Source of the DNA: a virus
Strand: one strand, 5' to 3'
Length of the DNA: 39,538 nt
IMG/VR virus record: IMGVR_UViG_3300025732_000098
Coordinates: 1 to 39,538 of that record
The position numbers were made by a program, and so were the translations under genes. Below are positions 9,719 through 39,538 of this stretch, in pieces; position 1 is the first letter of the stretch; every line of letters starts with the position of its first letter. Under the pieces are notes generated by a model. That model had not been told where the DNA came from. It made no database searches and saw only the letters and a program-made list of their open reading frames with translations.

Positions 9719-9786
9719 TTGTTATCTCCTTAAAATTTTAAATGGACTCGCTGCATTCTGGCCTTGGAACGCGGGGCCTGCGTGAA

Positions 9787-9816
9787 CAAGGACAGGGACC
9801 GAAGCCCCTGCCCTTG
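9787..9816 (-). other. Strong UUCG-loop hairpin downstream of the SSB-like gene
   Basis: On the minus strand 9787-9816 form a 13-bp stem (CAAGGGCAGGGGC pairing across, with two G-U pairs) closed by a C(TTCG)G tetraloop. No T-tract follows, so it is not a classic terminator. It may protect the 3' end of the SSB-like mRNA or act as a processing site. The rest of 9727-9828 has no ORF that I can support. Confidence 0.7.
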
Positions 9817-9828
9817 CTGGATGGATTG

Positions 9829-10149
9829 TTAGTTGATGAACTCAAGGTTGGTGACAATTTGGTTGTCATACCACTTGGTCTGTCCTTTTTCCTCACGGAC
9901 TGTGGTTGTCATATAACCTGATAGGTTGACAAAGAACTCAGCGTTCTCGGTTAGTAGAGGACGGAGTGTTGCTAGGATTGTTGGGTCAGTAATTGTGACC
10001 TGACGGCTAGCGATGAAGCGGGCTCTCATTTGCCCGTCTGGGGTGTATTCAGTCTGGCGGGACTGAACGATACCTTTGACTACGTTGCCATAGTCACGGA
10101 CTGATTTCAACAACGCATTGTTGAACTTGAACTCGTTTACTGTATTCAT
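9829..10149 (-). CDS. SSB-like OB-fold protein (candidate)
   Basis: This 106-residue beta-rich protein has a C-terminal pattern (EFFVNLSGYMTTTVREEKGQ, then TKWYDNQIVTNLEFI) that resembles the strand 'xGxLxTRxWxDKDGxxRYxTxxVxxxxxFL' of single-stranded DNA-binding proteins. It lacks an acidic C-terminal tip. AAGGAGACTAACC precedes the ATG. Strong hairpins lie on both sides, suggesting independent mRNA stability and high expression. Its place as an early gene in an operon with primase and helicase agrees with SSB. The match is by eye only. Confidence 0.5.
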   Translation of the reverse strand: MNTVNEFKFNNALLKSVRDYGNVVKGIVQSRQTEYTPDGQMRARFIASRQVTITDPTILATLRPLLTENAEFFVNLSGYMTTTVREEKGQTKWYDNQIVTNLEFIN

Positions 10150-10188
10150 TTGGTTAGTCTCCTTATTAGTTAGTTGTTTACTTTTTGT

Positions 10189-10222
10189 CGGGGAAATCCC
10201 CTCACTTGTGAGGGGTTCCCCG
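10189..10222 (-). other. Long two-part hairpin upstream of the SSB-like gene
   Basis: An outer 7-bp stem (CGGGGAA 10189-10195 with 10216-10222) continues, across a 2-nt bulge, into an inner 8-bp stem (CCCCTCAC 10198-10205 with 10208-10215). On the minus strand it is followed by ACAAAAAG, not a T-tract. It lies 40 nt before the SSB-like start and just after the stop of the preceding gene, a place suited to processing or 5' protection. Confidence 0.75.
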
Positions 10223-10231
10223 TGGTTGTGA

Positions 10232-10642
10232 TTAGTAGCAGATTGGGCACTCTGCTTGGTGCTTGTTGTAAATGAGATGGCAGGATTGGCATACCACCTC
10301 AGATGATGTTGTAGTCAGGCTGGTCTCAAGGTCAAATAACCTGTCTACTAGCATAGCGATTGGCTCTAAGAACTCATCTTCACGGTCAGTCCAGTCGTGA
10401 CCTGAAGGAAGGTCACGGATAACTGACATAGGATTGAACTCAGAGACAGAGCCACCGTTGGCTACGGCTACCTTCTTGGCACCATAGCCTTTGTAGTAGA
10501 AGTCTTGGGACTCATCTACTATTTTGTGGGCCAAGTAGATGTCATTGGCGTCCTTCTGCTCCTGACAATCAGGGCAGAGTTCAGTGAGTGCTTGGCATTG
10601 ATAGCACATAGTTTGGATACTGATGCCAGTATTCTCACTCAT
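10232..10642 (-). CDS. Early protein with zinc knuckles at both ends
   Basis: The open frame begins at 10684, but the ATG at 10642 is in an ATGA overlap with the upstream mini-ORF and is preferred (136 aa, MSENTGISIQTMCYQC ...). CYQC/CPDC near the N-terminus and CQSC/CPIC at the C-terminus make two CxxC-CxxC zinc knuckles flanking a helical acidic middle. It is one of the first genes of the early operon. A transcription or replication regulator would be a reasonable guess only. Confidence 0.68.
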   Translation of the reverse strand: MSENTGISIQTMCYQCQALTELCPDCQEQKDANDIYLAHKIVDESQDFYYKGYGAKKVAVANGGSVSEFNPMSVIRDLPSGHDWTDREDEFLEPIAMLVDRLFDLETSLTTTSSEVVCQSCHLIYNKHQAECPICY

Positions 10643-10767
10643 ACTGACACCCCAAACACTAGGTTTGCTGTGCGTTGGGCGCACATTTTGCTATCCGAGC
10701 ATAGGTAGTGGTTATCTACCAGTGTTACTTCAGTGGTGTGGGTTTCACACAGTGAGCAGATTTTCAC
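10639..10767 (-). CDS. Mini zinc-ribbon protein (42 aa), first early gene
   Basis: The ORF starts at GTG (MKICSLCETHTTEVTLVDNH ...) with CSLC and a C-x5-C pair (CSDSKMC) about 18 residues later. AGAGAGGAAATT lies upstream. The start overlaps the stop of a 6-codon leader ORF, and the end overlaps the next gene by ATGA. It is the promoter-proximal gene of the early operon. Confidence 0.65.
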   Translation of the reverse strand: MKICSLCETHTTEVTLVDNHYLCSDSKMCAQRTANLVFGVSV

Positions 10768-10784
10768 AATTTCCTCTCTGTCAT
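10764..10784 (-). CDS. Six-codon leader peptide (candidate)
   Basis: ATG ACA GAG AGG AAA TTG TGA encodes MTERKL. It has the operon's best ribosome binding site, AGGAGA, five bases upstream, and its TGA overlaps the GTG of the first early gene (GTGA). Such a leader could couple or tune translation of the early operon. It could equally be chance. Confidence 0.35.
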   Translation of the reverse strand: MTERKL

Positions 10785-10820
10785 AGGTATCTCCTATAAC
10801 TCTTCCTACATAAGCAGTTC

Positions 10821-10854
10821 TGTCAAGTCGTTGCGTAGCGCTTTTAGACTTGAC
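10821..10854 (-). promoter_or_regulatory. Inverted-repeat operator overlapping a TTGACA box
   Basis: GTCAAGTC (10822-10829) and GACTTGAC (10847-10854) form a perfect 8-bp inverted repeat, centres 25 bp apart. On the minus strand the proximal arm contains TTGACA (10826-10821), a consensus -35 for sigma-70-type polymerase. No good -10 lies at 16-18 bp; GTTATA and TATAGG occur at 20 and 22 bp. A WhiB-, sigma- or host-factor-controlled promoter is possible. Confidence 0.45.
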
Positions 10855-11122
10855 TGGACTGCTAGTGACTTTCAGATTTAATTATTAATCAGCCTGGCAC
10901 AGGTCTTTATTATTATAGGGCGAGGCGACAGGGATAGTGCCGAGCGAGTGTCTACTGTCTAACACACACCAGCACTGGACAGATAGCCTGTCTTGCTGTA
11001 GTCAGGCTGTATATAACAGACCCCAGACTTATTAAAAGCAGGCTGAAGTTATTATGTATAGTCCCAAAAAGATTTTCCCGTACAACCTATGACCCCTGCT
11101 ACTGTCCTAGTATGTCCTATTT

Positions 11123-16597: not shown

Positions 16598-16980
16598 TGG
16601 CAGATATTAGAGAAAAGGTTTCTGGAATTGGCGCTCTTTCCCAAAGAACAGATTTAAACGTATCTAAACAACCAGCAAGATATATTTCTGGCTTGCCTCA
16701 AGGGCAAGGTCAGGCTACCTATGACCAGCAAACCGCTGCACCTATGGCTGCAGTAGGTGAACCTACTATGTCAGATATAATTCCTCTTACTGCGCCAAGC
16801 CAAAGACGTGATGAGCCAATTACTGCGGGTGTGGATTTTGGCGCAGGTCCAAATTCTAATGTTATTAAACTTCCGAACCAAGAACCTACTCTGCTTTCTG
16901 TATTACAGCAGATTGCAGAAAATGACCCAAGCGGAGAGACTGAGTTAATCTATAAGGCTCTGCTTGAGCGAGGTTTATAG
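16597..16980 (+). CDS. Hypothetical head-module protein
   Basis: This 127-residue, Gln/Pro-rich and probably mostly disordered protein ends in a short helix (TLLSVLQQIAENDPSGETEL). It begins in a TAATG overlap and ends in a TAGTG overlap with the giant virion gene. A linker or scaffold helper is possible; no family was recognised. Confidence 0.6.
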   Translation: MADIREKVSGIGALSQRTDLNVSKQPARYISGLPQGQGQATYDQQTAAPMAAVGEPTMSDIIPLTAPSQRRDEPITAGVDFGAGPNSNVIKLPNQEPTLLSVLQQIAENDPSGETELIYKALLERGL

Positions 16981-19900
16981 TGCCAAGAATAGTTGATGAG
17001 TCTGTTGCTAACATAAGTCCTAACTTATACAAGGCAGCAATAACAACTGGTTTAGACCCTAAGTGGGCTAAAATATTAAATCAATTTTCTCTTAACCATA
17101 AAAAGGGTAAAGAACTTATTGCTATGGGCGACTCAATGGGTCGCAATGAGTTTCTTAAATTAGACCCTACGGTTCGTATGAATATTCAAGCATTGTTTCC
17201 TGACAGAAAAATGTTTTCTGATGAACCGAGTAACTTAAGAAAAGCAGTATCCTTTATAACAAAGGGACCACGTGAGGCTATAGAACTTCTCAGCACCCCA
17301 TTTATAAAAGCCCTTGATGCGTTAGATGCTTGGGAAAAAGGAACTAAGACTGGCTATTCACAGGTTCGTTCTGCTCAAGAAGCAAAGCAAGCATTATCAG
17401 CAGGATTGCCCGTAACTAAAAGAACTGACTTTAAAAAAGGTATCTTGAGTGATACCTATAATGGGCTAAACAACTGGGACTGGGACAAGGTTTCATCATA
17501 TGAAGAGCGCTATGGCGCAGCATTTACAACTCTTATGAGAGCAATTGCTGAAGGTCACACCGTAGAAGGTGCTATTGACCTTTGGGGTAATGCTGATGAA
17601 GATATGATGGCTGCTGTTATATCTATGTATGACAAGCCAAAAGAATTTAATCTAATTAAAGAAGCACTTAAAGTAGATGCTCAACTATCTCCAGGCCGTG
17701 ATTTAGTTGCTGGCAGAATTGCACCTGGCAATAACAGAGAAGCAAATTATTGGGTAGAAAAAATAGCCAAGTTTTTACTTGGTGAAGATAAATATGTTTT
17801 ACCACCAGGGATGAATCCTAATAGCAAAAAAGCAAAAGCCATTGCTCTAGAGTATGAAACCAAAAACAAGAAAAGAGTTTCTGGAGCGGTAGATGCTTTT
17901 TACACAATATTTATTGACCCGCTAACCTATGTAGGATTAGGTCTTCCAGCAGTAGGAAAGTCACTTGCTAAAGGTGTTGGCGGTATCCGTGTTGGTGTAC
18001 GTGAGGCTTTCCAGCAAGCAGCCTTTAAAACAAAGGGACAACGACTTGCTGAGCAACTAAAGTTTGTTTCAGAGAACAAAGGTTTAGAAGAAGGATACTC
18101 CTGGCTATTTAAGGATGTTCCAGAGGTGAAGAAACTTTGGGATGTAGACCTTGGGCCAAGACTAAAGGCTTACTCTGAAGCCGATACTCCAGCCAAGAAG
18201 GCTTCAATCCTTGAATCTATGAAGTTTGATTTCCCAGAATGGTATAACGATAAGACCATTAAAATTCTGGTAGATAATAAAACATTTGATGCCGAGTCAG
18301 CACGTAAGTTTTTTACTTATGTAGATGATGCAAATATGATGCTTAGTGGCCGAGTTAATGGTCTTTCTTTCAGGCGCAATGGTATTCCTTATGCCCGTAA
18401 AACTAGAAACCTAACGGCTGCTATGCACCGTGTTGCCTATCAGGTATTTAATCCTACTTCAGAAGTAGACCTTGCTGCTAAAGAAATACTCGCTAAATCA
18501 GATACAGATGCTGTCAAGGCTATGACTGTACTAACAAAAGTAGCCGATGATGAGAATAAACTACTTAACCCAGAGATTGATGACCTTTTTGCACTACAAA
18601 AAGATATAACTGGCGCTAGAAAAATAGCCTATAAATTAGGTGTGGCTGCTGGTAGAACCCCTGGACCTATTTACTTTGGCGAAAACGCCATTGATACTGC
18701 AGATAATATCCGTAATACTGCAAATCTAGTGCTGCCTAAGAATATTGCTAATGCAGTTACCATAATGTTGTTGGATGAACCACTAGATGTTCAGTTAACT
18801 GCAGTGCGTAATATGCAGTACGCTTATATGAAGCGTCTAAATCTGGATGAGGATGACATTGTTCAGATTTTAAACAAGACTTATAACGATGAAGGCTTTA
18901 CTTCTGTAGCCAACCTGCCAGTAGCAGATGAGTTCCTACCTCAGATGCACCCTGCGACTATCAATGTAGTCAATGGTGAGGGTATGTTGAGTGCTACAGG
19001 TGGTATACACCCTTCACAGTTGACCAAAGGTATCAAGGCTTTGCCTTTTGATACTATTTATCAATTATCTGCTAAGGCTAAACTTGATAATCTGCCCAAA
19101 GGAACACCAGGAAAGCATCTTATTAAAGGTTTTAATGGCTTTTTACGTAGCCATTTTGTAAGAATTTGGAACAATAACTGGGCAGCCTATACTCTTGTTC
19201 CACGCTTGGGTATCCGTACCAATGTTGATGAAGGATTTTTCTATTATTTAACTAAACCATTGACAGATGTTATGGATTTAGTAGCAAGTAAGTTCTCAAG
19301 AGATATTAAAGCAAGCCAGATTGTTACTGGTAGTAGCGCAGCAATAGGCCCATACAAGGGTTCTTTGTATTATATGGCTGGTAAAATGCGCATTAAAGAT
19401 GCAGATGGTTTGCCCTATGACCCACGCAAGATTTATACCCCTGCTCAGCGGGCGGAGTTGCTTGAGGATTTAAGAAAAGGACTTTCAGCAAAACTGGGGT
19501 ATGAAATCCCTATGTCAGAACTATCTCCAGTTCTTGTTAAAGAGTCAATTCTTTCTCGCATACAAGACATTTATGATGTAAATGGCCCAGAGTGGGAAAA
19601 CTGGAAGCGGGTTTTTAGAAATAACCCTAACTTCACAGATGGTCTAATCTCTTCAATGGGTGCCCGTGACCTATCAGTTGGCAAGATGGACTCAGAGTAC
19701 TTCAGTGCTTTGTTTACTACCGACCAGTTTAATTTATTCTTAAAAGAAATGGGCTTAGAGAAAGCCCCAGGATATAGCCCTAAAGAAGTAGCAGATTTGA
19801 CCCAACAAGAAGTTGGCATTGCTATGTGGGATAACTTTTTACTTAGGTTTGGCTATAACCAAATTAAAATCTCAGATAAAAAGTACCTAAATCCAGTAGA

Positions 19901-22394
19901 TGTGTTCTTTGCCAACAATGGCATTAAGAGCAATATGGATTTTGCCAAGGCACGTACTGATATTATGGAGCAGATGGGTGCTACATACAATGATGTTATC
20001 AATATGTATGACACATTGGATGAGGATGTATTAAAGTCTGCTTTATCATTCTTTGGTGAGACTGTTTACTACAGACAGAAGGGTTTATCTGACCCAGAGA
20101 TAGCAAGAATTTATGCTGAACGTATGATTACAGATATGCGTTTTACCTTCCACGGTAGTTCTAATGGTTTTAATGACAAACTATTCCAGTTGATGGGTAG
20201 CAAGTACAACGAAGTTGTTAAGGCAGCATCACGTCAGAAGAAGCCATTGGCTTATGCTTGGTCTAGAGCAGCCAATAACATTTCTTGGAAAGAGTTCAAC
20301 GAAGCAACCCTTGGAATGCGCCCCACTTCAGGGTATGTCAATACCCGTATTGTCAGCGGTGGTAAAGTTTCAGACCTAGATGGCCTTAAAGAAGACTTAA
20401 GCAAGATTGAATTAATGTTTGAAAAGTTTCCTGAAAAGGCTTTAGAGATGATGGACCGTCAGGTGACTGGCTTCTTCCGTCTACCAGCAATGCGTGTGGC
20501 TATTAATAAGGGCTTTGACGATATTAAGCCATTTGAACAACTATTAGTTGACCGCCACTACAAGGCTATTATAGAGGCTAACCCTAATCTTGACACTGCT
20601 GTTGCTATGGCAAGAGCAGAAGAAATAGCAGATAAGACAGTAACCAATATTGTGGTTAATAATGCTACAGATACTTTGTTAGAGTTTGTTGATAACCCTA
20701 ATATCCGCTCTAACTTTGCTTTATCTATCCGTCACGTTGGCCGATTTATCCGTGCTACTGAGGATTTCCACCGCCGTGTTTATCGTCTGTATGCTAATGA
20801 AGGCCCACGTGCTTTGATGCGTATGCGGTTACTACACTATGGTCTAGAGAACTTTGGCTCTATTTATGAAGATGAGCAAGGTGATGAATACATTGTATTT
20901 CCAACAGACATAGTTATGAATACTGTTATTAACAAAACTATTCAGGCTTTGACTGGGGATAATACTTACAAAGTAGGAACATTTAATAACTTCACATTAA
21001 AGTTCCGCCTAATTAACCCATCATTCTCACCAGATGCTGGTGTGCCAGCGTTTGCTGGGCCAGTTGCAGGGCTTGGTATTCTATTAACAAAGGCTTTACT
21101 CAGAGATTTGCCAGTAATAAAAATGCTTCTTCCACAGAACTGGGAAGATACCATCTACCCTTGGACTAATGAAGCAGCAGATTACTTAGATACTTTTGCT
21201 ATGGGTCATATTGGTAGAAATACAGACCTTGGCGATGTGCTACGTATAGGATTTCCTATGCTTGCTAGCACAGCCTGGGATACGGTAGTAAGAGATTCTG
21301 AAAAGAACCGTATGAAGGCTAACTATGTAATTCAGGGTATTTCTTACCTAGAAGCATTTGGCAATGGATTACCTGCCAATGCAACAAAGCAGGAAAAGCA
21401 GAAGTATATGTACCATTTAAAGATTGCTGCAGATAATATTGCTGCAGGTCAAGCAATACTTGGTATGATTAGCCCAGGTTTTCCTGGTGTTAAAGATGCA
21501 AAAGGTTTACCAAACTTCATAAGAGATAATGGTATTAGTACCTGGACCAGTGCTTTCTGGGATATATATCAGGGCGTACTAGCCTCTGATACAGAAGTTG
21601 CTAATCCTTTTGAAACTGCTTTGGCTATGTTTATTGGCAAGAACCCAGGCAAGTCTGTGTATACAATTCCTAGAACTGACAAGGCTTCTAAGGTATTTAT
21701 TAACAAAACTAATGAGTTAAAGCAATGGGCTACAGATAACAAAAGATTTGTAGATACATATGCTGACTCTGGTATTGGCTATATCTTTGCCCCAAAGGTG
21801 GGCGAGTATAACCCAGATATATATAACTGGATGCAGTCTGTAGATTTAGTAAATCAGCCAGACCTATTTAAGTACCTTGAGAAGGTACAAATATCTGTAG
21901 ACAAAGAAAGATACTTTGCTGTAGATAAAGAATTAAATAAGAAGTTATCTGAAACTGCCGATTATTCTGAACGTAAGAAGTTTATTGCTCTGGCAGAAAG
22001 AGAAAAACAACTACTCTTTATTTCTAATCCTTTACTAGAGGATGCTATAAATGAGGCAGGAGAAAACAAGGGCGAACTAAAAATAATGTTCAGTGACCTT
22101 GAGGATGCAGTCAATAACCCTAAGAGTCCTATTGCTGATAATACAAAGAGCGCAATGCGCTTGGCTATACAACAGGTTAAGAACTTTGAACTCTTCTCTA
22201 ACAATATGGTAAACAAGAACTCCTATACCTTTACCTCTGATAGAGCAAAAATGAAAGATGATGTTATTGCTATGCTTCGGGAACTTGCTTTTGACCCAGC
22301 AGTTAAAGAAGCAACAAGACTTATCTTTGTTCCGCTTTTGAATAAGTATTCCCGAGATGCAATTAGTGCTTCACCAGAAAGAGGATACCCGTGA
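16980..22394 (+). CDS. Giant virion protein (1,804 aa), probable DNA-ejection/internal protein
   Basis: GTG start in a TAGTG overlap. The protein takes up about 14 % of the genome and is almost entirely helical and charged, with scattered hydrophobic stretches (for example FYTIFIDPLTYVGLGLPAVG near 310-330, and VPAFAGPVAGLGILLTKALL near 1355). No lysozyme, peptidase or polymerase motif was seen. Its size, its place in the structural operon and its helical make-up fit an ejection or internal-core protein of a short-tailed phage. A tape-measure protein is the alternative, but the position before scaffold and capsid is not usual for one. Confidence 0.65.
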   Translation: MPRIVDESVANISPNLYKAAITTGLDPKWAKILNQFSLNHKKGKELIAMGDSMGRNEFLKLDPTVRMNIQALFPDRKMFSDEPSNLRKAVSFITKGPREAIELLSTPFIKALDALDAWEKGTKTGYSQVRSAQEAKQALSAGLPVTKRTDFKKGILSDTYNGLNNWDWDKVSSYEERYGAAFTTLMRAIAEGHTVEGAIDLWGNADEDMMAAVISMYDKPKEFNLIKEALKVDAQLSPGRDLVAGRIAPGNNREANYWVEKIAKFLLGEDKYVLPPGMNPNSKKAKAIALEYETKNKKRVSGAVDAFYTIFIDPLTYVGLGLPAVGKSLAKGVGGIRVGVREAFQQAAFKTKGQRLAEQLKFVSENKGLEEGYSWLFKDVPEVKKLWDVDLGPRLKAYSEADTPAKKASILESMKFDFPEWYNDKTIKILVDNKTFDAESARKFFTYVDDANMMLSGRVNGLSFRRNGIPYARKTRNLTAAMHRVAYQVFNPTSEVDLAAKEILAKSDTDAVKAMTVLTKVADDENKLLNPEIDDLFALQKDITGARKIAYKLGVAAGRTPGPIYFGENAIDTADNIRNTANLVLPKNIANAVTIMLLDEPLDVQLTAVRNMQYAYMKRLNLDEDDIVQILNKTYNDEGFTSVANLPVADEFLPQMHPATINVVNGEGMLSATGGIHPSQLTKGIKALPFDTIYQLSAKAKLDNLPKGTPGKHLIKGFNGFLRSHFVRIWNNNWAAYTLVPRLGIRTNVDEGFFYYLTKPLTDVMDLVASKFSRDIKASQIVTGSSAAIGPYKGSLYYMAGKMRIKDADGLPYDPRKIYTPAQRAELLEDLRKGLSAKLGYEIPMSELSPVLVKESILSRIQDIYDVNGPEWENWKRVFRNNPNFTDGLISSMGARDLSVGKMDSEYFSALFTTDQFNLFLKEMGLEKAPGYSPKEVADLTQQEVGIAMWDNFLLRFGYNQIKISDKKYLNPVDVFFANNGIKSNMDFAKARTDIMEQMGATYNDVINMYDTLDEDVLKSALSFFGETVYYRQKGLSDPEIARIYAERMITDMRFTFHGSSNGFNDKLFQLMGSKYNEVVKAASRQKKPLAYAWSRAANNISWKEFNEATLGMRPTSGYVNTRIVSGGKVSDLDGLKEDLSKIELMFEKFPEKALEMMDRQVTGFFRLPAMRVAINKGFDDIKPFEQLLVDRHYKAIIEANPNLDTAVAMARAEEIADKTVTNIVVNNATDTLLEFVDNPNIRSNFALSIRHVGRFIRATEDFHRRVYRLYANEGPRALMRMRLLHYGLENFGSIYEDEQGDEYIVFPTDIVMNTVINKTIQALTGDNTYKVGTFNNFTLKFRLINPSFSPDAGVPAFAGPVAGLGILLTKALLRDLPVIKMLLPQNWEDTIYPWTNEAADYLDTFAMGHIGRNTDLGDVLRIGFPMLASTAWDTVVRDSEKNRMKANYVIQGISYLEAFGNGLPANATKQEKQKYMYHLKIAADNIAAGQAILGMISPGFPGVKDAKGLPNFIRDNGISTWTSAFWDIYQGVLASDTEVANPFETALAMFIGKNPGKSVYTIPRTDKASKVFINKTNELKQWATDNKRFVDTYADSGIGYIFAPKVGEYNPDIYNWMQSVDLVNQPDLFKYLEKVQISVDKERYFAVDKELNKKLSETADYSERKKFIALAEREKQLLFISNPLLEDAINEAGENKGELKIMFSDLEDAVNNPKSPIADNTKSAMRLAIQQVKNFELFSNNMVNKNSYTFTSDRAKMKDDVIAMLRELAFDPAVKEATRLIFVPLLNKYSRDAISASPERGYP

Positions 22395-23269: not shown

Positions 23270-24186
23270 TGGCTATTACAGATGGTTCTTTAATTGACGG
23301 TGATGGTTCTACTCAATCAGTTGTTCCTACTGGAGATGAAACAAGCGGAGAGTTAATGGCTCTTGCTTATGGTATTACCAAAGAGTTGATAGCGCTATAC
23401 CCTGAACTAGAGCCTATTTACCAACTTTTTGTTAAGAAAAGGTTTACCGAAGCAAGACTTGCTTATTATAATTCTACATACTATAAGGACTTAACTCAGA
23501 CTTCTAAGACTAGAACAGAGAGTAAAGCAACCCAGCCTGGTGTTTATGCCCAGGAATTTGACGCTTGGAAAAAAGAACAAGTTGTTCGTATTAACAAAAA
23601 GGGTATTAAAGTAACTCCACAGATAGAGGGTCTACTTGAAGGCTATTATCTACAAGGTTTAACTGACTTACAGATTGATGCAAAAATTCTTGACTCTGGC
23701 TTGGTGGGAACTTTTGCTGGTTCTACCCTGGGTTTAGTAAATACCCTAAAGTCCCTTGCCGATGACCAAGGTGTTTCCCAATTACTTGGCAAAAATTACT
23801 GGGACAAAATCTCTAAAGGTTTATTTGAAGGCAGTATAAATGTAGAGGATGTAGAAGAAGAAATTAAACAAACTGCTATGTCTGCTTATCCAGCCTATGC
23901 TAAAGGCATAGAGGTAGGTAGAAGTTTCCAACAGCAAACCTCTGCACTGCGCCAGACTATTGCCAACCTACTAGAGATAGACGTAGATACAATTAATAAC
24001 AATAACTCTATGTTCAAGCAGTTAGTTAATTATACCAACCCTAAGACTAAAGAGCCAGAAATTATTTCTTTGTGGGAAGCAGAAAAGATAGTTAAAAGCA
24101 GTGACCAATGGATGACTACAAAGAATGCAAAAGAAACTTTTGACAATCTTGCTCTTAAGGTTCTTAAGGATTGGAGACTAGTTTAA
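23269..24186 (+). CDS. Virion-associated hypothetical protein
   Basis: This 305-residue, mainly helical protein starts in a TAATG overlap. Its N-terminal segment is Ser/Thr-rich, then helices (LMALAYGITKELIALYPELE) and a C-terminal helical region follow. The helical make-up and position match internal or ejection proteins, but nothing decisive was seen. Its stop overlaps the start of the next gene (TAATG). Confidence 0.6.
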   Translation: MAITDGSLIDGDGSTQSVVPTGDETSGELMALAYGITKELIALYPELEPIYQLFVKKRFTEARLAYYNSTYYKDLTQTSKTRTESKATQPGVYAQEFDAWKKEQVVRINKKGIKVTPQIEGLLEGYYLQGLTDLQIDAKILDSGLVGTFAGSTLGLVNTLKSLADDQGVSQLLGKNYWDKISKGLFEGSINVEDVEEEIKQTAMSAYPAYAKGIEVGRSFQQQTSALRQTIANLLEIDVDTINNNNSMFKQLVNYTNPKTKEPEIISLWEAEKIVKSSDQWMTTKNAKETFDNLALKVLKDWRLV

Positions 24187-25622
24187 TGGCTATAGAAAGT
24201 GGTCCTTTATTTGATGATGGTGGCTATCAGCCTGACTATGTAGAGCCTACCCCTTATGAAAATACTGATAGAATGGCAGAACTTGAGGCTGCAAGATTAG
24301 CAGCCTATGAAGAGACAGCCAAGGCCCGTGCTGCTACTGACCCGATGCTGGATATAACTCAACGTCCAGCAGCAGAACAAACAAACCCAAATTATATTTA
24401 TTATTACTCTTGGATTGGTGGCACTACTACTGGTCAATGGACACTATATCGTGCACCCAACACAGTAGAAAATCAACTTAAGTATGGTTCCCGCACCTTT
24501 GGTGGCACAACACAGGCTAGTTATACAAGTAGTTTAGGTGCCAATGCACTGGTAAACCAGCCTAATCCTACTATGGATGCTAACGGAAATGTTATTGGTT
24601 GGAATACACCTACTGATGTGACTGATACAGAAAGTACAACTAAAACAAATACAAAATTTAACTTTTCTTTTAATAATACAAATACTACTGATAATAAAAC
24701 TACAACTACAGATTCTGATATGACTGCTGCTTATATGGCTTTGCAGGAAAAACAAAGAACAGAAACTGCTATATCAACCCTTACTGATTTGTTTACTAAG
24801 TATGGGCTATCAAGTCTTATCCCTAAAATGAAAGAACTGGCTATTGCTGGTGCCACAGAAGCCACTATTTCTTTAGAACTTTCTAGTACTCCAGAGTGGA
24901 AAGAGCGGTTTAAGGCTAATGAAATCCGCAGAAAGAATAACCTAGCGGTTCTTGAGCCTGGTGAATACATAGCCCTTGAGGATAAGTATCGCCAAATCCT
25001 TCGGGCATATGGCCTAAAAAGATTTGACTCTGATGACTATGTAAGCAAGTTTATTGCTGGAGATATGTCACCTTCAGAGTTGCAAAGCAGAGTATCTATT
25101 GCTATAGACAGGGTTCAGAATGCTGACCCATTGGTTACAGATACACTACGTAGATTTTATAACATTACAACTACAGACCTTGCAGCATATCTGCTAAACC
25201 CAGAGGATGAACTGCCTAAGTTAGAGCGTCAGGTAACTGCTGCTGAAGTAGGTGCTAAGTTTGGAGAACAAGGATTATTGTCATCCTTAAATGCTGGACA
25301 AACTGGAACTGGTTTCAGCAATGTAAGCCGACAGACTCTTGGTGTAGATGCAATGGTTAAGGCTGGTGCTACAGCAGAGACTGCTGCTAGAGCAGCCCAA
25401 TACATTAGCGGTGTACTACCTAGAGCAGAATTTTTAAGTTCACTGTATGGAAATGCTTATGAACAATATGGCCAGTTAGAAGCAGAACAAGAGTCCGTGC
25501 TAGGACTTGCTTCCGCTGCCCGTGCAAGACAGCGCCTAAGTGCTAGAGAGAGAAGCCAATTCGGTGGTTCTTCTGGTATATCCAGAGCATCCTTTGGTTC
25601 TCAGTCACAAGGCAACTTCTAA
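24186..25622 (+). CDS. Virion-associated hypothetical protein with Thr/Asn-rich region
   Basis: The frame is open from 24171, but the ATG at 24186 is in a TAATG overlap with GGAG upstream. The 478-residue protein has a Tyr-rich N-terminal region, a Thr/Asn-rich low-complexity stretch (about 145-180), a helical middle, and a C-terminal Arg/Gln/Ser/Gly-rich tail (SARARQRLSARERSQFGGSS). It is the last gene before a 120-nt leader and the scaffold gene. Likely a structural or internal protein. Confidence 0.6.
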   Translation: MAIESGPLFDDGGYQPDYVEPTPYENTDRMAELEAARLAAYEETAKARAATDPMLDITQRPAAEQTNPNYIYYYSWIGGTTTGQWTLYRAPNTVENQLKYGSRTFGGTTQASYTSSLGANALVNQPNPTMDANGNVIGWNTPTDVTDTESTTKTNTKFNFSFNNTNTTDNKTTTTDSDMTAAYMALQEKQRTETAISTLTDLFTKYGLSSLIPKMKELAIAGATEATISLELSSTPEWKERFKANEIRRKNNLAVLEPGEYIALEDKYRQILRAYGLKRFDSDDYVSKFIAGDMSPSELQSRVSIAIDRVQNADPLVTDTLRRFYNITTTDLAAYLLNPEDELPKLERQVTAAEVGAKFGEQGLLSSLNAGQTGTGFSNVSRQTLGVDAMVKAGATAETAARAAQYISGVLPRAEFLSSLYGNAYEQYGQLEAEQESVLGLASAARARQRLSARERSQFGGSSGISRASFGSQSQGNF

Positions 25623-25742: not shown

Positions 25743-26213
25743 ATGAGCAACAACTACTGGGACGAAGAAGACGATGACCAAGACAACGAACAGTTTGCTA
25801 CTGGTGATGACTTAGTTAAAAAACTAAGAAAAGCCAAACGAGCAGATGAAAAACGTATCAAGGAACTCACAGAGCAACTTGAGGAATTATCCAAGGTGCA
25901 GCGTGAGCGAACTGTCAAGGAAGTCCTAGAAAAGAAGGGTATCAATACCAAGGCTGCACGTCTTATTCTAAAAGACCTGGGCGATATAACAGAGGAATCT
26001 CTGAACGGATGGCTCCAAGAAAATGGAGACCTGATTGGGTATCAGCCAGAAATTAAGAGTGAGGAACAGCAACAGAATCTAGCGGCATTACGCCAGCAGG
26101 ATGTTGTTACGCAGAGTGGAATTGCCCCTGACAAGATGAATGATTTAACAGCAAAACTTGATAATGCACAAAGTGCAGATGAGTTACTTGCTTTCCTTCG
26201 TTCACAATCATAA
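25743..26213 (+). CDS. Capsid scaffolding protein
   Basis: The frame starts at a GTG at 25734, but the ATG at 25743 is preferred; the difference is three codons. The 156-residue acidic protein has a disordered acidic N-terminus (WDEEDDDQDNEQF), a coiled coil (about 20-60, LRKAKRADEKRIKELTEQLE), and a Gln-rich helical C-terminal half. Size, composition and position directly before the capsid gene are typical of scaffolds. It would be removed from the prohead during maturation. Confidence 0.82.
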   Translation: MSNNYWDEEDDDQDNEQFATGDDLVKKLRKAKRADEKRIKELTEQLEELSKVQRERTVKEVLEKKGINTKAARLILKDLGDITEESLNGWLQENGDLIGYQPEIKSEEQQQNLAALRQQDVVTQSGIAPDKMNDLTAKLDNAQSADELLAFLRSQS

Positions 26214-26241: not shown

Positions 26242-27189
26242 ATGGCATATGTATCAACAGACTCCGCCTCTTTAGGTGGAACCGCTGGTGCTGCTGGTCT
26301 AGTTCAGAAGGCGTATGACCGCCTTCTTGAATTTGCTCTCCGCTCAGAACCACTAATCCGTTCTGTCGCAGATAAGCGCCCAGCAAAGCAAGCAATCCCT
26401 GGCTCAACAGTCGTTCTACAACGTTATGTTGACCTTTCCGCTGCAACTTCAACACTGACTGAAACAACAGACCCAGATGCAGTTGCAATGTCTACACCTA
26501 CCTCAGTTACCATTACTCTTAATGAGTACGGTAACTCAGTACTAGTTACCCGTGCGTTGGAACTCTTCAGCCTTGCTGATGTAGACCCAGCAATCGCTAA
26601 CATTATTGCGTTCAACCTTGCCGATTCTATTGACCAGGTTGCAATGACAACTCTACGTGGTGGAAGCAACGTGATTTACTCAGGTTCAACCGCTACATCT
26701 ACCGCAACAATTACTGCTGCTGCAACACTATCTTCTGCAAACATCCGCAAGGCTGTTGCTAAGTTACGTGCTAACAAGGCTGTTGCTCGCAAGGGCTCAC
26801 TATTCTGGGCTGGTATTCACCCAGAGGTTTCACACGACCTTCGTGCAGAGACAGGCTCAGCAGGATGGCTTCTACCTAATCAGTACGGTGCTTCACAGGA
26901 CCGCATCTGGACAGGTGAAATCGGAACATACGAAGGTGCATTCTTCGTAGAGTCCCCACGTCTATACGCTGCAACTGATGGTGCTTCATCTGCAAAGGTG
27001 TACCGCACAATCCTTTGCGGACAGCAGGCTCTTGCTGAGGCAGTTGCTGAAGAGCCACACGTAGTCATCGGACCAGTAGTAGACCGCTTGATGCGTCACC
27101 GCCCAATGGGCTGGTACGGCGTACTCGGCTTCGCTCGCTACCGCGAAGAGGCTTTGTACCGCATTGAAAGCGGTTCATCAATCGCTTAG
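26242..27189 (+). CDS. Major capsid protein (HK97 fold)
   Basis: This 315-residue protein has AGGAGACTAA upstream of the ATG. It shows the N4-gp56-like/HK97 order: an N-terminal helix (VQKAYDRLLEFALRSEPLIR), beta segments (STVVLQRYVDLS), the spine helix (about 120-135), and a C-terminal axial-domain beta region (EEPHVVIGPVVDRLMRHRPM). Codon usage appears richer in GC-ending codons than in its neighbours, as expected for a highly expressed gene. It forms the icosahedral shell. A hairpin follows the stop. Confidence 0.9.
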   Translation: MAYVSTDSASLGGTAGAAGLVQKAYDRLLEFALRSEPLIRSVADKRPAKQAIPGSTVVLQRYVDLSAATSTLTETTDPDAVAMSTPTSVTITLNEYGNSVLVTRALELFSLADVDPAIANIIAFNLADSIDQVAMTTLRGGSNVIYSGSTATSTATITAAATLSSANIRKAVAKLRANKAVARKGSLFWAGIHPEVSHDLRAETGSAGWLLPNQYGASQDRIWTGEIGTYEGAFFVESPRLYAATDGASSAKVYRTILCGQQALAEAVAEEPHVVIGPVVDRLMRHRPMGWYGVLGFARYREEALYRIESGSSIA

Positions 27190-27251: not shown

Positions 27252-27521
27252 ATGGCGAACTATACATTTAAAACACCAGTTGCTAAAGAGGGGCCAATAG
27301 GTAAACACCGCTTGTTCCGCTTTTATAAACTGGATAAAGGTATTTCCATTGTTAAGTCTGGTTCAGTTTATTCTCAGATTAGATACCCAACTGATGACAG
27401 TTTAAGTTCTTATTCAGAAGTTTACCTTGGTGGTAGAAACCATACTGTTGATGAGACAACTAAGGCAGCACTTATTGCTGCCAATGTAGGAGTTACGGAG
27501 GCTAACTTTACCGCACTATGA
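27252..27521 (+). CDS. Small beta-rich virion protein (candidate decoration protein)
   Basis: This 89-residue protein (MANYTFKTPVAKEGPIGKHR ...) is beta-rich with a C-terminal helix (TTKAALIAANVG). AAAGGAG precedes the ATG. It comes right after the capsid gene, where decoration or head-completion proteins often lie. No family was recognised with confidence; the end overlaps the next start by ATGA. Confidence 0.65.
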   Translation: MANYTFKTPVAKEGPIGKHRLFRFYKLDKGISIVKSGSVYSQIRYPTDDSLSSYSEVYLGGRNHTVDETTKAALIAANVGVTEANFTAL

Positions 27522-27823
27522 AGCACTGGGAACATCATCCAGAGTATGTAGAAGGTTGTTTTGGCTGTAAAGCCTCAACACTACAGATGAACCCTGGGGA
27601 CGCAAAGAGAGATATTCCTGACAAGAAGTGGAACGCTGAACTACAAGCATATAGAGATGCTAGAGCACAGGGTATCCAGCCGTCAGGAACACGTATGAAA
27701 GATATACAAGAAGCACACCAAGCATCAGAGGTTCTGGGCAAACCTTATAATGCTGACAGTATGCCCAAAGCCAAACAGATTACCAAGGGAGTGGCCGAGG
27801 TAATGAAAGAGATAGGAAAATAA
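27518..27823 (+). CDS. Hypothetical protein with N-terminal Cys/His pair
   Basis: This 101-residue protein has HPEYVEGCFGCKASTLQ near the start, which could bind one metal, followed by a Lys/Arg-rich helical part (RDARAQGIQPSGTRMKD). It starts in an ATGA overlap and ends in a TAATG overlap. Short proteins with this N-terminus occur beside capsid genes in other actinophages as far as I recall. Confidence 0.6.
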   Translation: MKHWEHHPEYVEGCFGCKASTLQMNPGDAKRDIPDKKWNAELQAYRDARAQGIQPSGTRMKDIQEAHQASEVLGKPYNADSMPKAKQITKGVAEVMKEIGK

Positions 27824-27960
27824 TGTCAGTTAAAAGCGAAAAGTATAAGTCTAAAAAGGCTATGAAAAAGCACGAAAAGACTGAATCAAAAAAAGAAATG
27901 ATGATGGAATACGGCAAGGGTAAAGCAACAAAGAAAATGACTAAGAAAGGCAAGAAGTAA
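27823..27960 (+). CDS. Tiny Lys-rich protein (45 aa)
   Basis: This ORF (MSVKSEKYKSKKAMKKHEKT ...) is about 40 % Lys/Arg, with a Met-rich middle and a KKMTKKGKK end. It starts and ends in TAATG overlaps in the run of small basic genes after the capsid gene. Nucleic-acid binding is likely from charge alone. Confidence 0.65.
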   Translation: MSVKSEKYKSKKAMKKHEKTESKKEMMMEYGKGKATKKMTKKGKK

Positions 27961-28109
27961 TGGCAAAGAAAGATTATTCAGTAAAGATGTCTAGTTCTCG
28001 CGCTAAGACACCTGCACAGGTTGGTCGTATGAACGCGCTAGATAGAGCAATTGCTACTGGTGTTCCGCTAAAGAGCAAGAACAAGAATGCAAAGAAGAAA
28101 GTACGCTAA
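27960..28109 (+). CDS. Tiny basic protein (49 aa)
   Basis: The ORF (MAKKDYSVKMSSSRAKTPAQ ...) ends in KSKNKNAKKKVR. It is chained to its neighbours by TAATG overlaps. Basic and probably disordered; function unknown. Confidence 0.65.
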   Translation: MAKKDYSVKMSSSRAKTPAQVGRMNALDRAIATGVPLKSKNKNAKKKVR

Positions 28110-28297
28110 TGAAGAAGTCAGCCAAGCATCCAGGATTCAAAGCAGCCCAATCACAAATTGCCAAAAAGCAGGGTATCTCAAAGGAACGTGCAGGAGCAAT
28201 CCTTGCGGCTGGTGCTCGGAAAGCCTCAGCAGCAGCCAAGAAGAAGAACCCAAACCTTAAGAAGGTTAAGGGTGCTATGAAGAAAGGTAAGAAATAA
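28109..28297 (+). CDS. Small basic helical protein (62 aa)
   Basis: The protein has a conserved-looking pattern, KHPGFKAAQSQIAKKQGISK then AGAILAAGARKASAAAKKKN, repeated in many phage genomes as far as I recall. Ala/Lys composition and a short helix pair suggest DNA or RNA contact, or capsid lining. TAATG overlaps at both ends. Confidence 0.68.
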   Translation: MKKSAKHPGFKAAQSQIAKKQGISKERAGAILAAGARKASAAAKKKNPNLKKVKGAMKKGKK

Positions 28298-28569
28298 TGG
28301 CAGCAAAAAAAGTAATTAAGATTAATAGCAATCCAAATAAAACAAAAATTGCAACTAGTAGCCCTACTTCTGATGCAGTAAGACAATGGTCTAATGAAAA
28401 TAGGACTAGAGAAAAATATTATAATCTTGAAAAAGGAAGTACTAAGTCTATTTATAAAATTAATAGCAATCCAAAACCAGGTAAGACAACCGTTTCACCT
28501 ATGGCTAATGTTCGTGGCCGTATTGTTGGTGGCGGTCTTGGCGGTATGTTCGGAACTAAGAACCGTTAA
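28297..28569 (+). CDS. Small basic protein with repeated INSNP motif
   Basis: This 90-residue protein has the motif KINSNP twice (about residues 8-13 and 54-59), each followed by a basic stretch, then a Gly-rich C-terminus (GRIVGGGLGGMFGTKNR). A small duplication probably produced the two motifs. TAATG at both ends. Function unknown. Confidence 0.6.
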   Translation: MAAKKVIKINSNPNKTKIATSSPTSDAVRQWSNENRTREKYYNLEKGSTKSIYKINSNPKPGKTTVSPMANVRGRIVGGGLGGMFGTKNR

Positions 28570-28712
28570 TGTCTTCAGGTAAGTATAAGCAACACAGAAA
28601 ATTTAATAAAGTACAAATCAAAAACGGAATGGTAGTACGGCTTAACAAAAATGGAACAGTTAGGTCAGTACTAGGAAAGTATGGGGAGTATGGAAAACAA
28701 AAGCAAGCGTGA
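28569..28712 (+). CDS. Tiny basic protein (47 aa)
   Basis: A 47-residue Lys-rich ORF (MSSGKYKQHRKFNKVQIKNG ...) in a TAATG overlap with its upstream neighbour. Its end runs 23 nt into the next gene and carries that gene's GGGGAG ribosome binding site. Function unknown. Confidence 0.55.
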   Translation: MSSGKYKQHRKFNKVQIKNGMVVRLNKNGTVRSVLGKYGEYGKQKQA

Positions 28713-28986
28713 CCCACGCCTAGCACGTGCAGGCGTATCTGGGTTTAACAAGCCGAAACGTACTCCCAATCATCCTACTAAGTCACACGTGGTTGTGGCT
28801 AAGTCTGGTGACCAAGTTAAGACTATCCGCTTTGGTGAGCAGGGTGCCAAGACTGCTGGCGCACCAAAGGCTGGAGAGTCAAAGCGTATGAAGATGAAGC
28901 GTAAATCATTTAAGGCTCGTCATCAAAAGAATATAGCAAAGGGCAAAATGAGTGCAGCCTATTGGGCTGACAAAGTTAAATGGTAA
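28690..28986 (+). CDS. DUF6321-like basic protein
   Basis: The ATG at 28690 has GGGGAG upstream and is preferred over the frame's first ATG at 28681. The 98-residue basic protein has the pattern SHVVVAKSGDQVKTIRFGEQG and SFKARHQKNIAKGKMSAAYW. This matches the DUF6321-type pattern seen in T4-like cyanophages, from memory. The conserved ARHxKNI-KGKMSAAYW end suggests nucleic-acid contact. It is the last of the post-capsid basic genes. Confidence 0.65.
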   Translation: MENKSKRDPRLARAGVSGFNKPKRTPNHPTKSHVVVAKSGDQVKTIRFGEQGAKTAGAPKAGESKRMKMKRKSFKARHQKNIAKGKMSAAYWADKVKW

Positions 28987-29000
28987 GAAAGTAGGGGACA

Positions 29001-29678
29001 ATGGCAGAAGAAACAGTATCGCTAGTATGGTGTGACAACGGTATGGTAGATGGCAAGTTTGCCCAAGGTATTGCCGATGTGCTACTAAAATCTGGCGTAA
29101 AGTTTGAGACAACACTACGCAGCCACGGCAATCAGATTGCCAGACAGCGTGAAGAGTCAATCAACTATTGGTATGAAAACAATAAGTCTGACTGGCTATT
29201 CTGGGTAGACTCAGATGTAGTAGTAAGCCCTGAAGTTTTTTTAAGACTTTGGAATAAAAAAGATGCTTTAACTAAGCCACTACTAACTGGTGTTTACTTT
29301 ACAACTAATAACCCAGAAGAACCACTAATGATACCTCTACCTACTGTATTCAAGTTTGTAGATAACGATGAAGGATTTGCATTAGAAAGAATTCATCCAC
29401 TACCTAAAGATGCTCTGATTAAAGTAGATGCAGCAGGTATGGGCTTGGTGCTTATGCACCGAAGCGTGGTAGAAAGAATCCGTAAAGTTGTTCCAGATGC
29501 CACTATGTTCCAAGAGTTAGGCACTGGCAAGAAGTTTATAGGCGAAGATATATTCTTCTTTGCCCTATGTAATCAGGCAGAAGTACCACTCTGGTGCGAT
29601 ACAGGAGCAACGGCTCCACATATGAAAAGATTTAGTTTTGATGAACATTACTATAACGCAATGACCAAAGGAAGATAA
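29001..29678 (+). CDS. GT-A glycosyltransferase (family 2-like)
   Basis: This 225-residue protein has the DxD sugar-nucleotide motif in WLFWVDSDVVV (D70/D72), preceded by an IARQREESINYWYENN helix. A later GEDIFFFALC segment fits the general acid/base region of GT-A enzymes. GGGGACA precedes the ATG. Lying between the basic genes and the fibre genes, it probably adds sugars to a virion or fibre protein, or to host surface polymer. Confidence 0.75.
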   Translation: MAEETVSLVWCDNGMVDGKFAQGIADVLLKSGVKFETTLRSHGNQIARQREESINYWYENNKSDWLFWVDSDVVVSPEVFLRLWNKKDALTKPLLTGVYFTTNNPEEPLMIPLPTVFKFVDNDEGFALERIHPLPKDALIKVDAAGMGLVLMHRSVVERIRKVVPDATMFQELGTGKKFIGEDIFFFALCNQAEVPLWCDTGATAPHMKRFSFDEHYYNAMTKGR

Positions 29679-29953: not shown

Positions 29954-30291
29954 GCGCAAAGTATAATTTGGTCTGCGAGCAGGCTACAACGTTCAACCTA
30001 CAGTTTACAGTTAAGACTGGTGATACTGCTTGGAACTTAACTGATTATACAGCCACAATGACTGTCAAGCCATTTCCTAACTCAACCACAACTACCGTAT
30101 TGGCTACCAATGCTAATGGCAAGATTGCCCTAGGTGGTTCTACTGGAACCGTCACTATTACTTTATCGGCTACTGAAACAGGGGCTATTACCCCTGGCAA
30201 GTATGATTATGATTTTGTTCTAGACTCAGGCTCAGTTGTTACCCGACTACTTGAAGGTAAGTTCATAGTAACAGCAGGTATCACAGTATGA
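29950..30291 (+). CDS. Beta-sandwich tail/fibre-associated protein (candidate)
   Basis: This 113-residue protein starts at GTG in a GTGA overlap. It is beta-rich and Thr-rich: [33 protein letters not shown], then [20 protein letters not shown]. The pattern is typical of the BppU N-terminal/Ig-like domains found beside phage fibres. It overlaps the collagen-like gene by ATGA, so it may be its partner. Confidence 0.6.
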
Positions 30292-31562
30292 GTGAAACTA
30301 TCGTAGTTGTAGAGCAACCTAGTAGCAGTGCAATCACCCTTAATATCAGTCCAGCGACTGAGGCTACTGAGGTTATTGTCATCGCTGAGGAACAGCCTGA
30401 GACTTCTGTAGTTATCTCTAATGACCAAGGCCCACAAGGCATTCCAGGAGTTACAGGCCCTACTGGCCCTACGGGGGCCACTGGGCCTACAGGTGCTGGT
30501 GCAACAGGCGCTACAGGCCCCACAGGGGCTGTAGGAGTCACTGGAGCGACAGGCCCAGTAGGTGCCACAGGTCCTGCAGGTGCAACAGGAGCGACTGGTC
30601 CAATAGGACCTGCTGGCGCTACAGGAGCAACTGGTGCTACTGGTGCAGACTCTACAGTTGCTGGTCCTACGGGAGCCACAGGCCCCGCTGGGGCTACAGG
30701 ACCTACTGGCCCTGCTGGTGCCGATTCAACTGTACCAGGGCCTATAGGTGCTACTGGCCCAACGGGGGCTACTGGTCCAGCAGGAGCGGATTCAACAGTT
30801 CCTGGTCCAACTGGAGCAACTGGCCCTACGGGCCCTGCAGGTGCTACAGGTGCAACAGGACCACAAGGAGCAGACTCTACAGTTCCAGGTCCTACTGGTG
30901 CTACTGGCCCGACTGGACCGATAGGAGCAACAGGACCTGCAGGTGCAGACTCAACAGTGCCAGGACCAACAGGTGCGACAGGTCCTGCTGGAGCAACGGG
31001 ACCGATTGGCGCAACAGGGCCAGTTGGTGCTACGGGAGCAACAGGGCCGACAGGAGCAGCAGGAAGTGGAGTTGTTCTTGTAGCCTATGGAACTTTTGAT
31101 GTTGTTAATACAACAACACTTACCAGTGTCATTACCTATGGAATTTCCAATCCGACTGCTGGAACTTTCTACAGAGTAACTATCGGTGGACAGTATTTGA
31201 ATAACTCTGGCGCAAACAAAACTTTAAGAATCCAAGTGAGTTTCGGTGGCTCCGCTGTTTATACTGCAACATCAGGTAACTTATCAGCAAACGCTAACAC
31301 AAGGTCTTTCAAATATGAAACTTTGCTTTTCTGCCCTAGCACAACTACACAAAGAATTGTTACTCAGGCGTTTCTGGCGGGTACTGCTACTGCAGACGGA
31401 ACTGCTACTTGGGCAACAAACAATCTTGTATACTTAGGTGAGCGGGAAACTTCTGTTGATACATCTACTTCTAAAGATTTAGAAGTACAGTTTGCTCACA
31501 GCGTTGCTGCTACTACTATTGAAATCAGTGGTAACTACCGTATTGAAAAAATAATTCCATAA
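30288..31562 (+). CDS. Collagen-like fibre protein
   Basis: This 424-residue protein has a beta-like N-terminal part (1-47), a Gly-X-Y collagen stretch (about 48-260) rich in GPT, GAT and GPA, and a C-terminal beta-rich domain (261-424) that may be a jelly-roll receptor-binding head. The triplets are broken by five STV(P/A) insertions after GAD (Ser at 122, 147, 169, 197 and 222). Trimeric collagen shafts are known in phage fibres. Two glycosyltransferase genes flank this cluster. Confidence 0.85.
30429..31067 (+). repeat. Collagen-type Gly-X-Y repeat with spaced GAD-STVP modules
   Basis: Coding triplet repeat within the fibre gene. The five GAD-STV(P/A) interruptions are spaced 25, 22, 28 and 25 residues apart. 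Nucleotide codons vary between copies while the protein motif is kept, so the repeat is not a recent exact duplication. Confidence 0.85.
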
Positions 31563-38956: not shown

Positions 38957-39535
38957 ATGAAAGCCAAAGTTGTGAAGGTGGCCAGCCCTGCGGCTACTGC
39001 TGCTCTTCGTCAGGCGACGAAGTTGTGGCCCAAGCGCAAGAAAGCGTCAGACGGATTGTTGCCTTCATTGGCACATCTCAAGCAGAACCCCAATTCGGAC
39101 CACAATACTGGGCTAGCAGTAGACATAACACACGACCCTAAGAATGGGGTAGATGGTAAGGAAATCTTTGAGAAGTTAAAAAAGGATAAACGGGTCAAGT
39201 ACCTGATATTTAATGGAAGGATATGGGAGCGTGGAAGAGGGGAAAAAACTTACACTGGTAGTAATCCTCACCGCAGTCATATACATATCTCTATTCGTGA
39301 TGGTCACGGTGGCGACACTTCTAACTGGTTCAAGTGGGTAAAGCCTAAAGTTAAAAAGAAACCAGTCAAAAAAGTTACTCCAAAGAAATCAATAAAGAAA
39401 AAACCAGCAACAAAACAAACCAAGAAGAAGCCCAACATAAAGCAGGTAAGAAAGAAATCCATACTGTTGTCCCTCTTCAAGAAAGGCAAGAATGAAAAAG
39501 TTAAACAAGTTAAAAAGAAAAATAAAAAGTCCTGA
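38957..39535 (+). CDS. Endolysin, M15-type peptidase with Lys-rich tail
   Basis: This 192-residue protein carries the D-Ala-D-Ala carboxypeptidase/L-Ala-D-Glu peptidase motifs SDHNTGLAVDI (H49, D56) and HRSHIHI (H108, H110), which bind the catalytic zinc. The peptidase domain ends near residue 125; a 60-residue tail very rich in Lys follows (about 131-192), perhaps contacting anionic wall polymers. The stop lies in the second copy of the terminal repeat. On the circle the holin gene (92-328) starts within this tail in another frame. Confidence 0.88.
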   Translation: MKAKVVKVASPAATAALRQATKLWPKRKKASDGLLPSLAHLKQNPNSDHNTGLAVDITHDPKNGVDGKEIFEKLKKDKRVKYLIFNGRIWERGRGEKTYTGSNPHRSHIHISIRDGHGGDTSNWFKWVKPKVKKKPVKKVTPKKSIKKKPATKQTKKKPNIKQVRKKSILLSLFKKGKNEKVKQVKKKNKKS

Positions 39536-39538
39536 GTT
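39401..39538. repeat. Terminal direct repeat, right copy
   Basis: Identical to bases 1-138. See the left copy; it covers the last part of the endolysin gene and the start of the holin gene. Confidence 0.95.

Follow-up and report, generated by a model that had tools for sequence, protein, structure and literature searches.

Downstream of its major capsid gene, the virus considered here carries a run of very small overlapping open reading frames (ORFs), all encoding proteins rich in lysine and arginine. Are these ORFs genes, and what would such a set of cationic proteins do in a phage? The window analyzed is the whole virus record (IMG/VR record IMGVR_UViG_3300025732_000098; 39,538 bases), and a direct terminal repeat of 138 nt at its two ends (1-138 and 39401-39538) indicates that the genome of the record is probably complete. 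The major capsid protein (315 aa; 26242..27189, plus strand) matches phrog_1357 (E 5.6e-80) and Pfam Phage_capsid_3 (E 4.1e-15). Over the aligned pieces it is 80.6% identical to the capsid proteins of OX376640 and OX376641 (LanE43-AprE7 and LanE43-AprF5), which are the cultured Planktophila phages E7 and F5 in the relevant passage of their description (PMC10202952), and it is at most 55.6% identical to the capsid proteins of Streptomyces phages among the matches listed. A WhiB gene (940-1131, minus strand) agrees with an actinobacterial host, and the virus probably infects freshwater actinobacteria. The capsid ORF has 399 aa in E7 and F5 (L166, 5992-7191; L298, 4992-6191) vs. 315 aa in the window; because the match falls into two pieces, an insertion is likely.

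An acidic gene of 156 aa (25743-26213; net charge -11) lies directly before the capsid gene, and we infer that its product is a putative scaffold. Two conserved genes follow the capsid gene on the plus strand, one of 89 aa (27252..27521; phrog_8987, E 2.2e-25) and one of 101 aa (27518..27823; phrog_24600, E 1.4e-22), the latter forming the left border of the cassette; they are kept in 78 and 75, respectively, of the best 80 capsid-lineage loci among at least 596 relatives. The run of small ORFs starts 634 nt past the capsid gene. The earlier note had placed it after the capsid gene; to be corrected here is that these two genes intervene. A glycosyltransferase-like gene (29001..29678, plus strand; phrog_34859, E 7e-75) lies to the right. 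Farther downstream, a 424-aa ORF (30288-31562) holds a long collagen-like Gly-X-Y stretch. Elsewhere in the window, a 1,804-aa ORF (16980-22394) has no PHROG match at E 1e-3, and its position suits a large internal or tail protein.

The Six Small Basic ORFs

All six ORFs are on the plus strand. They are s1 (45 aa, net charge +13; 27823-27960), which is K/R-rich; s2 (49 aa, +12; 27960-28109), with TAATG coupling at both ends; s3 (62 aa, +19; 28109-28297), predicted to be helical with a basic tail; s4 (90 aa, +14; 28297-28569) and s5 (47 aa, +11; 28569-28712), again K/R-rich; and s6 (98 aa, +21; 28690-28986), the anchor of the cassette and a match to phrog_7595 (E 3.2e-42), with an alternative in-frame ATG three codons upstream (28681). 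Lysine and arginine make up 20-40% of each protein, the pI is 10.2-11.5, and the net charges, +11 to +21 each, sum to +90. TAATG overlaps occur at five junctions (preceding gene/s1, s1/s2, s2/s3, s3/s4, and s4/s5), and s5 and s6 overlap by 23 nt. Our analysis thus reproduced the coordinates (27823-28986), sizes (45-98 aa), basic charge, and chaining of the six Lys/Arg-rich ORFs as first described. The accompanying remark that several are too short for standard gene callers was overstated. The usual floor of gene callers is 30 aa, below the 45 aa of s1, and of 33 phage records with annotation (40 of the 44 records listed), 31 show the s6 homolog as a hypothetical protein. Both of the records lacking this annotation are of Roseobacter phage SIO1 (AF189021.1 / NC_002519.1), in which the s6 homolog (24065-24277; 59.5% identity) has no annotated feature.

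Selection was estimated from pairs with pS 0.1-0.7 and sequences inside length limits. Median dN/dS was 0.29 for s1 (28 sequences, 225 pairs, one pair at or above 1), 0.19 for s3 (52 pairs), 0.20 for s5 (25 sequences, 148 pairs), and 0.10 for s6 (93 sequences, 1,002 pairs), with 0.12 for the capsid gene as the comparison value (3,461 pairs). These four, s1, s3, s5, and s6, are genes under purifying selection. Among the best 80 capsid-lineage loci of at least 596 relatives, s1 is present in 30 and s5 in 20, and s3 has at least 565 relatives in viral_contigs. Relatives of s2 in viral_contigs were found at three loci only, all 100% identical, and those of s4 at four, one identical, one 73% identical over residues 1-66, and two matching over residues 55-90 only; the standing of s2 and s4 as genes rests on frame, coupling, and charge. 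The conservation that had been proposed as a check is therefore found for four of the proteins, in relatives and in dN/dS, and hardly for s2 and s4, which have almost no relatives. Pfam, PHROGs, and NCBIfam returned nothing significant for s1-s5, and tblastn of s3 against phages gave no match at E 1e-3, in a search whose low-complexity filter may have masked s3.

The arrangement itself exceeds chance expectation. Among 5,000 first-order Markov resamples of the window, the longest chain of ORFs of at least 45 aa was three, seen once; the real run scores a chain of five by the same rule, s6 from 28681 exceeding its overlap limit. For 24 other small ORFs, chosen from the window by a greedy rule, the median net charge is +1 (range -10 to +10).

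A Modular Slot Filled from a Shared Pool

We scanned viral_contigs with s6 (at least 598 relatives) and with the capsid protein (at least 596), keeping the best 80 loci of each. Both border genes are present within 4 kb in 66 of these 160 loci, which with the window makes 67; the loci are not independent, L001 and L122 being one contig and others near-duplicates. Between the left border gene and s6 there are 1-6 ORFs, 226 in total, with a median net charge of +14; the charge is +5 or more in 223 of the 226 and zero or negative in none. Of 293 junctions, 265 fall between -30 and +3 nt, including 134 TAATG overlaps and 30 overlaps of the -4 type. Purine-rich stretches of at least four bases occur in 122 of 221 unique junctions vs. 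37% after shuffling; this enrichment is mild, and the reading of K-rich gene ends as ribosome-binding sites was not used.

The slot ORFs sort into 31 families (one of which, F00, merges s1-like and s3-like K-rich proteins) and 42 ordered arrangements in the 67 loci. Content changes quickly between close relatives. At 95-99% capsid identity the mean Jaccard overlap of slot sets is 0.34 (92 pairs, five with identical sets), and at 99% or above it is 0.73 (10 pairs). The slot is a modular pool of small basic proteins swapped between phages. Proteins of the DUF6496, DUF6321, phrog_17747, phrog_14910, and phrog_34011 families are pool members in the same slot of related phages; s1-s6 themselves match neither the DUF6496 and DUF6321 Pfam families nor these three PHROGs at E <=1. 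In E7 and F5 the slot holds an s1-like first ORF (53 aa, judged by eye), a basic ORF of 118 aa, a DUF6496 protein of 61 aa, and an s6 of 84 aa.

The usual fixed member is s6, present in 55 of the best 80 capsid-lineage loci (at least 596 relatives). Among the 25 without it, 18 have less than 2.5 kb past the capsid gene, and in six of the seven roomy loci s6 is replaced by a different basic protein, recognized by its motif (at L111 only the end of the motif is an ATG-started ORF). Three of the six replacement proteins were tested, and all are DUF6321 (E about 3.5e-21); a DUF6321-type motif occurs in 7 of the 160 loci, and s6 in none of those seven. The seventh roomy locus, L092, has instead a 495-aa protein (9603-11087; net charge +86) that ends in a LysM domain (E 5.6e-10), so that a role at the cell wall is suggested for this slot. 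Streptomyces phage Manuel has a homolog of the border gene four genes past its capsid gene, and its annotation shows no series of tiny genes. In the titles and opening abstracts of the open papers listed, queried with coarse terms and with subscription papers mostly outside, no cassette of this kind is named.

Family and Predicted Fold of s6

Residues 5-98 of s6 match positions 3-96 of the 96 in phrog_7595, so s6 is a full-length member; the family carries no function. It also matches part of phrog_220, labeled minor head protein and DNA pilot (E 2.3e-7). Large proteins contain the domain as one of several parts in phrog_220 and among the capsid proteases, whereas s6 stands alone. The C-terminus has a SAAYWADKVKW-type end, in which S88, W92, and W98 are invariant in 31 aligned sequences.

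The predicted structure is a β-hairpin with two helices (best pLDDT 79; the four other models, 46-63). Comparison of this model with the PDB gave no meaningful match (best Foldseek E 1.4; best VIA Z 2.0), and the best hit of an s6 profile among PDB sequences was ribosomal L24 at E 0.18. In BFVD the model matched ICP1 ORF125 (E 0.035) and, from an uncultured phage, an XkdF protein (E 5.6e-3). It also matched a 95-aa protein of Tunisvirus fontaine2 (V9SE36; probability 0.96, E 0.043), which hints at an occurrence of the fold in giant viruses. No PF14550 (Peptidase_S78_2) match was obtained for s6, nor any S78 or S78_2 match in the window.

The s6 Domain in Head Proteins of Other Phages

Aeromonas phage PhAER-4 has an s6-like domain (residues 75-150; phrog_7595, E 5e-12) N-terminal to the XkdF-type protease domain (176-287, E 4.4e-19) of one protein; two genes past this fusion protein lies a head decoration gene. 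The order is reversed in ICP1 Gp125, where residues 36-160 match the protease domain (E 3.5e-10) and the s6-like domain is C-terminal; residues 174-278 match the PhAER-4 protein at 60% identity (E 2e-38). Gp125 is annotated as a capsid protease, and terminase, portal, scaffold, decoration, and coat genes flank it. The plain s6 profile at E 0.01 missed Gp125 among long ORFs, and its domain was found by tblastn and blastp via PhAER-4 and also after two fused members had been added to the profile. About 85 residues of s6-like domain are common to s6 and both of these XkdF-type (Peptidase_S78_2) proteases, from which s6 differs in having no protease domain. The PhAER-4 protein is covered by phrog_1530, labeled DNA methyltransferase, and further matches of this kind carry that label too; it looks wrong, because the PhAER-4 member is an s6-like domain plus an XkdF protease. 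Gp125 is presumed to degrade the scaffold, and complete virion proteomics of ICP1 had not yet been done, according to the pertinent part of PMC9040626. The mass-spectrometry database used for ICP1 procapsid-like particles consisted, in the corresponding section of PMC10945586, of coat, scaffold, decoration, TcaP, and Escherichia coli proteins; since Gp125 was outside it, that section is uninformative on Gp125.

A different partner is found in Aphanizomenon phage CL131, whose ORF012 (L297, 2917-7098; 1,393 aa) combines portal, s6-like, pyrophosphatase-like, and Mu-F domains. Its s6-like part, at about 540-609 when the frame is counted from stop to stop (E 5.4e-7), is placed between the portal and Mu-F domains; the inorganic pyrophosphatase-like domain is PF18823. 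LC-MS/MS of CL131 virions yielded 23 proteins, four predicted ones among them, the portal ORF012 included, in the virion section of PMC6293099. With two domain orders beside a protease and with a portal protein as a further partner, an interior head role is the best reading of the s6 domain, and the protease and portal/MuF fusions lend independent support to its probable association with the head. A structural protein of Lactobacillus phage 521B was rejected as an s6 match, being partial only (positions 16-62 of 96). Apparent s3 fusions were also rejected, since they arose where frames taken from stop to stop read through upstream sequence.

s6 and s3 Outside the Capsid Lineage

Relatives of s6 (E <=1e-5) occur in 44 phage records, many with Roseobacter-type and cyanobacterial hosts, at up to 80.7% identity. 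Among 69 viral_contigs loci that have s6 and lack this capsid lineage, family F06 is present in 37, F07 in 35, and both in 34; the order F06, F07, s6 is seen in only 11 of the 34. In Synechococcus phage S-CRES1, a 132-aa protein directly upstream of s6 holds the F07 stretch (E 7.7e-17) and also part of F06 (E 2e-4).

The nearest larger ORF is on the same strand as s6 in 45 of 51 cases upstream and 56 of 62 downstream. The 111 scanned s6 neighbors include at least 9 portals, at least 7 large terminases, and at least 4 major head proteins, in a scan where flanking ORFs above 900 aa were dropped and one protein can match several PHROGs; three of the 111 are ribonucleotide reductases. Of ten s3 neighbors chosen by size, within a broader tally that covers 61, seven match large terminase, portal, or head maturation protease, and three match nothing. 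Several podoviruses have s6 away from the capsid gene, either close to lysis genes or where the late region ends.

The s3 model consists of helices only with a basic tail (pLDDT 79; 75-79 over five models). Foldseek gave 37 rows, of which 13 name HU or IHF in their titles, all at E >=1.3, and the helical half of the model aligns with HU at VIA Z 4.1 (40 residues, rmsd 3.9). In hhalign, s3 against eight phage HU proteins scored 20.6 with a probability of 10%; this exceeds 100 shuffled-column controls, the reversed control, and 172 unrelated proteins, and s3 against s1 scores 21.2. At 62 aa, the s3 model may weakly resemble HU/IHF in its helical half and differs in having no DNA-gripping β arm. 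Neither s3 nor a second family member matched Pfam at E <=1, PF00216 included. We did not accept s3 as an HU protein, since it has no significant sequence match and its look-alike score is weak; the HU-like look of the model is a lead for DNA binding only.

Possible Functions of the Cassette

We propose that the six ORFs form a cassette of the late operon whose small cationic products act inside the procapsid, some of them touching DNA, a reading that in our view has an even chance of being right. The earlier note's suggestion of DNA-condensing, capsid-lining, or co-packaged and injected proteins gains support in part, from the conservation of four of the six and from the head association of the s6 domain; condensation, lining, co-packaging, and injection by the free proteins are candidate roles. 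Judging from gene position, the proteins would be made late with the capsid, and they would enter the procapsid interior as free proteins. There s6 would be the usual fixed member, a small predicted domain belonging inside the head because it is fused elsewhere to capsid proteases and to a portal/MuF protein. The other members, drawn from the swapped pool, may supply positive charge for binding nucleic acid, facing either the packaged DNA or the inside of the capsid wall; on this reading they would contact DNA and stay in the virion, and some may be ejected. We prefer this explanation because of the fixed place after the capsid gene, the overlap coupling, the uniform positive charge, and the purifying selection; because of the s6 fusions, the reported presence in virions of one protein with an s6-like domain, CL131 ORF012 (PMC6293099, virion section), and the XkdF and ICP1 ORF125 structural matches; and because portal, terminase, and head genes adjoin s6 and s3 outside the lineage and s3 is weakly HU-like. 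Against a place in the head interior, fused domains need not reveal the role of the free protein, and podovirus s6 genes away from the capsid gene, ribonucleotide reductase neighbors, the failure of the HU lead as sequence homology, and the LysM slot of L092 also speak against it.

Tailed phages are usually thought to neutralize their DNA with cations and polyamines. Against the 79,076 phosphates of this genome, a summed charge of +90 means that about 88 copies of each protein would be needed for 10% neutralization. The part of PMC3281028 on this subject finds no evidence that basic proteins contribute much to the neutralization of phage dsDNA, and describes basic DNA-binding proteins as apparently in use by chlorella viruses. 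Given these copy numbers and that account (PMC3281028, same part), a local role (lining, portal end, or ejection order) is easier to accept than global condensation. It is a bold and improbable extension of our proposal that aquatic tailed phages of one widespread group package a swappable set of small histone- or protamine-like proteins with their DNA, anchored by s6 as a dedicated procapsid domain. The packing of basic proteins with dsDNA in chlorella viruses would be the model for such a pool, the difference being that these are eukaryotic giant viruses.

Other explanations have to be weighed. The proteins could be assembly factors only, binding the inner capsid or scaffold during procapsid formation and then leaving or being degraded, with s6 as an encapsidation tag and the charge serving an acidic partner such as the putative scaffold (25743-26213, net -11) rather than DNA. 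The fusion of the s6 domain to capsid proteases, which are active in procapsids, and the acidic 156-aa gene directly before the capsid gene, a presumptive scaffold, would suit this; we nevertheless consider it unlikely, as it leaves the uniformly basic, freely swapped rest of the pool unexplained and CL131 ORF012 is reported in mature virions (PMC6293099, virion section).

Less probable is the idea that these are not head proteins at all and that a late-operon slot gathers small, late-acting proteins that bind nucleic acid or ribosomes, and other accessory genes. The variable slot content, the LysM protein in one slot, and the location of s6 outside the head module in some phages would then be expected; the s6 domain is, however, fused to head proteins, and s3 relatives adjoin portal, terminase, and head-protease genes, which makes this quite doubtful.

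Injection into the host is a further possibility, the proteins being packaged with the DNA, ejected, and acting on host DNA, RNA polymerase, or defenses. The model here would be the T4 internal proteins and T7 gp6.7 and gp7.3; the proteins that T4 and T7 carry inside the head or eject with the DNA are small and encoded near head genes, a likeness of functional analogy only. Small size, high charge, and fast swapping of members between close relatives would suit an arms race, and the s6 domain adjoins the MuF domain in CL131, but effectors specific to one host would not be as conserved between hosts as s6 and s3 are, and we regard injection as distinctly improbable. That the ORFs are due to chance or decay is hardly credible, for despite the near lack of relatives of s2 and s4, dN/dS is well below 1 for s1, s3, s5, and s6, and a chain of the observed length is absent from the 5,000 resamples.

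Proteins s6 and s3 are common in viral metagenomes and have no known function, and the procapsid-interior role that we favor would, if true, annotate both of them. If the pool binds packaged DNA, protein-assisted DNA packing would enter the biology of tailed phages. The cultured Planktophila phages E7 and F5 carry the cassette, so its role is directly testable there.
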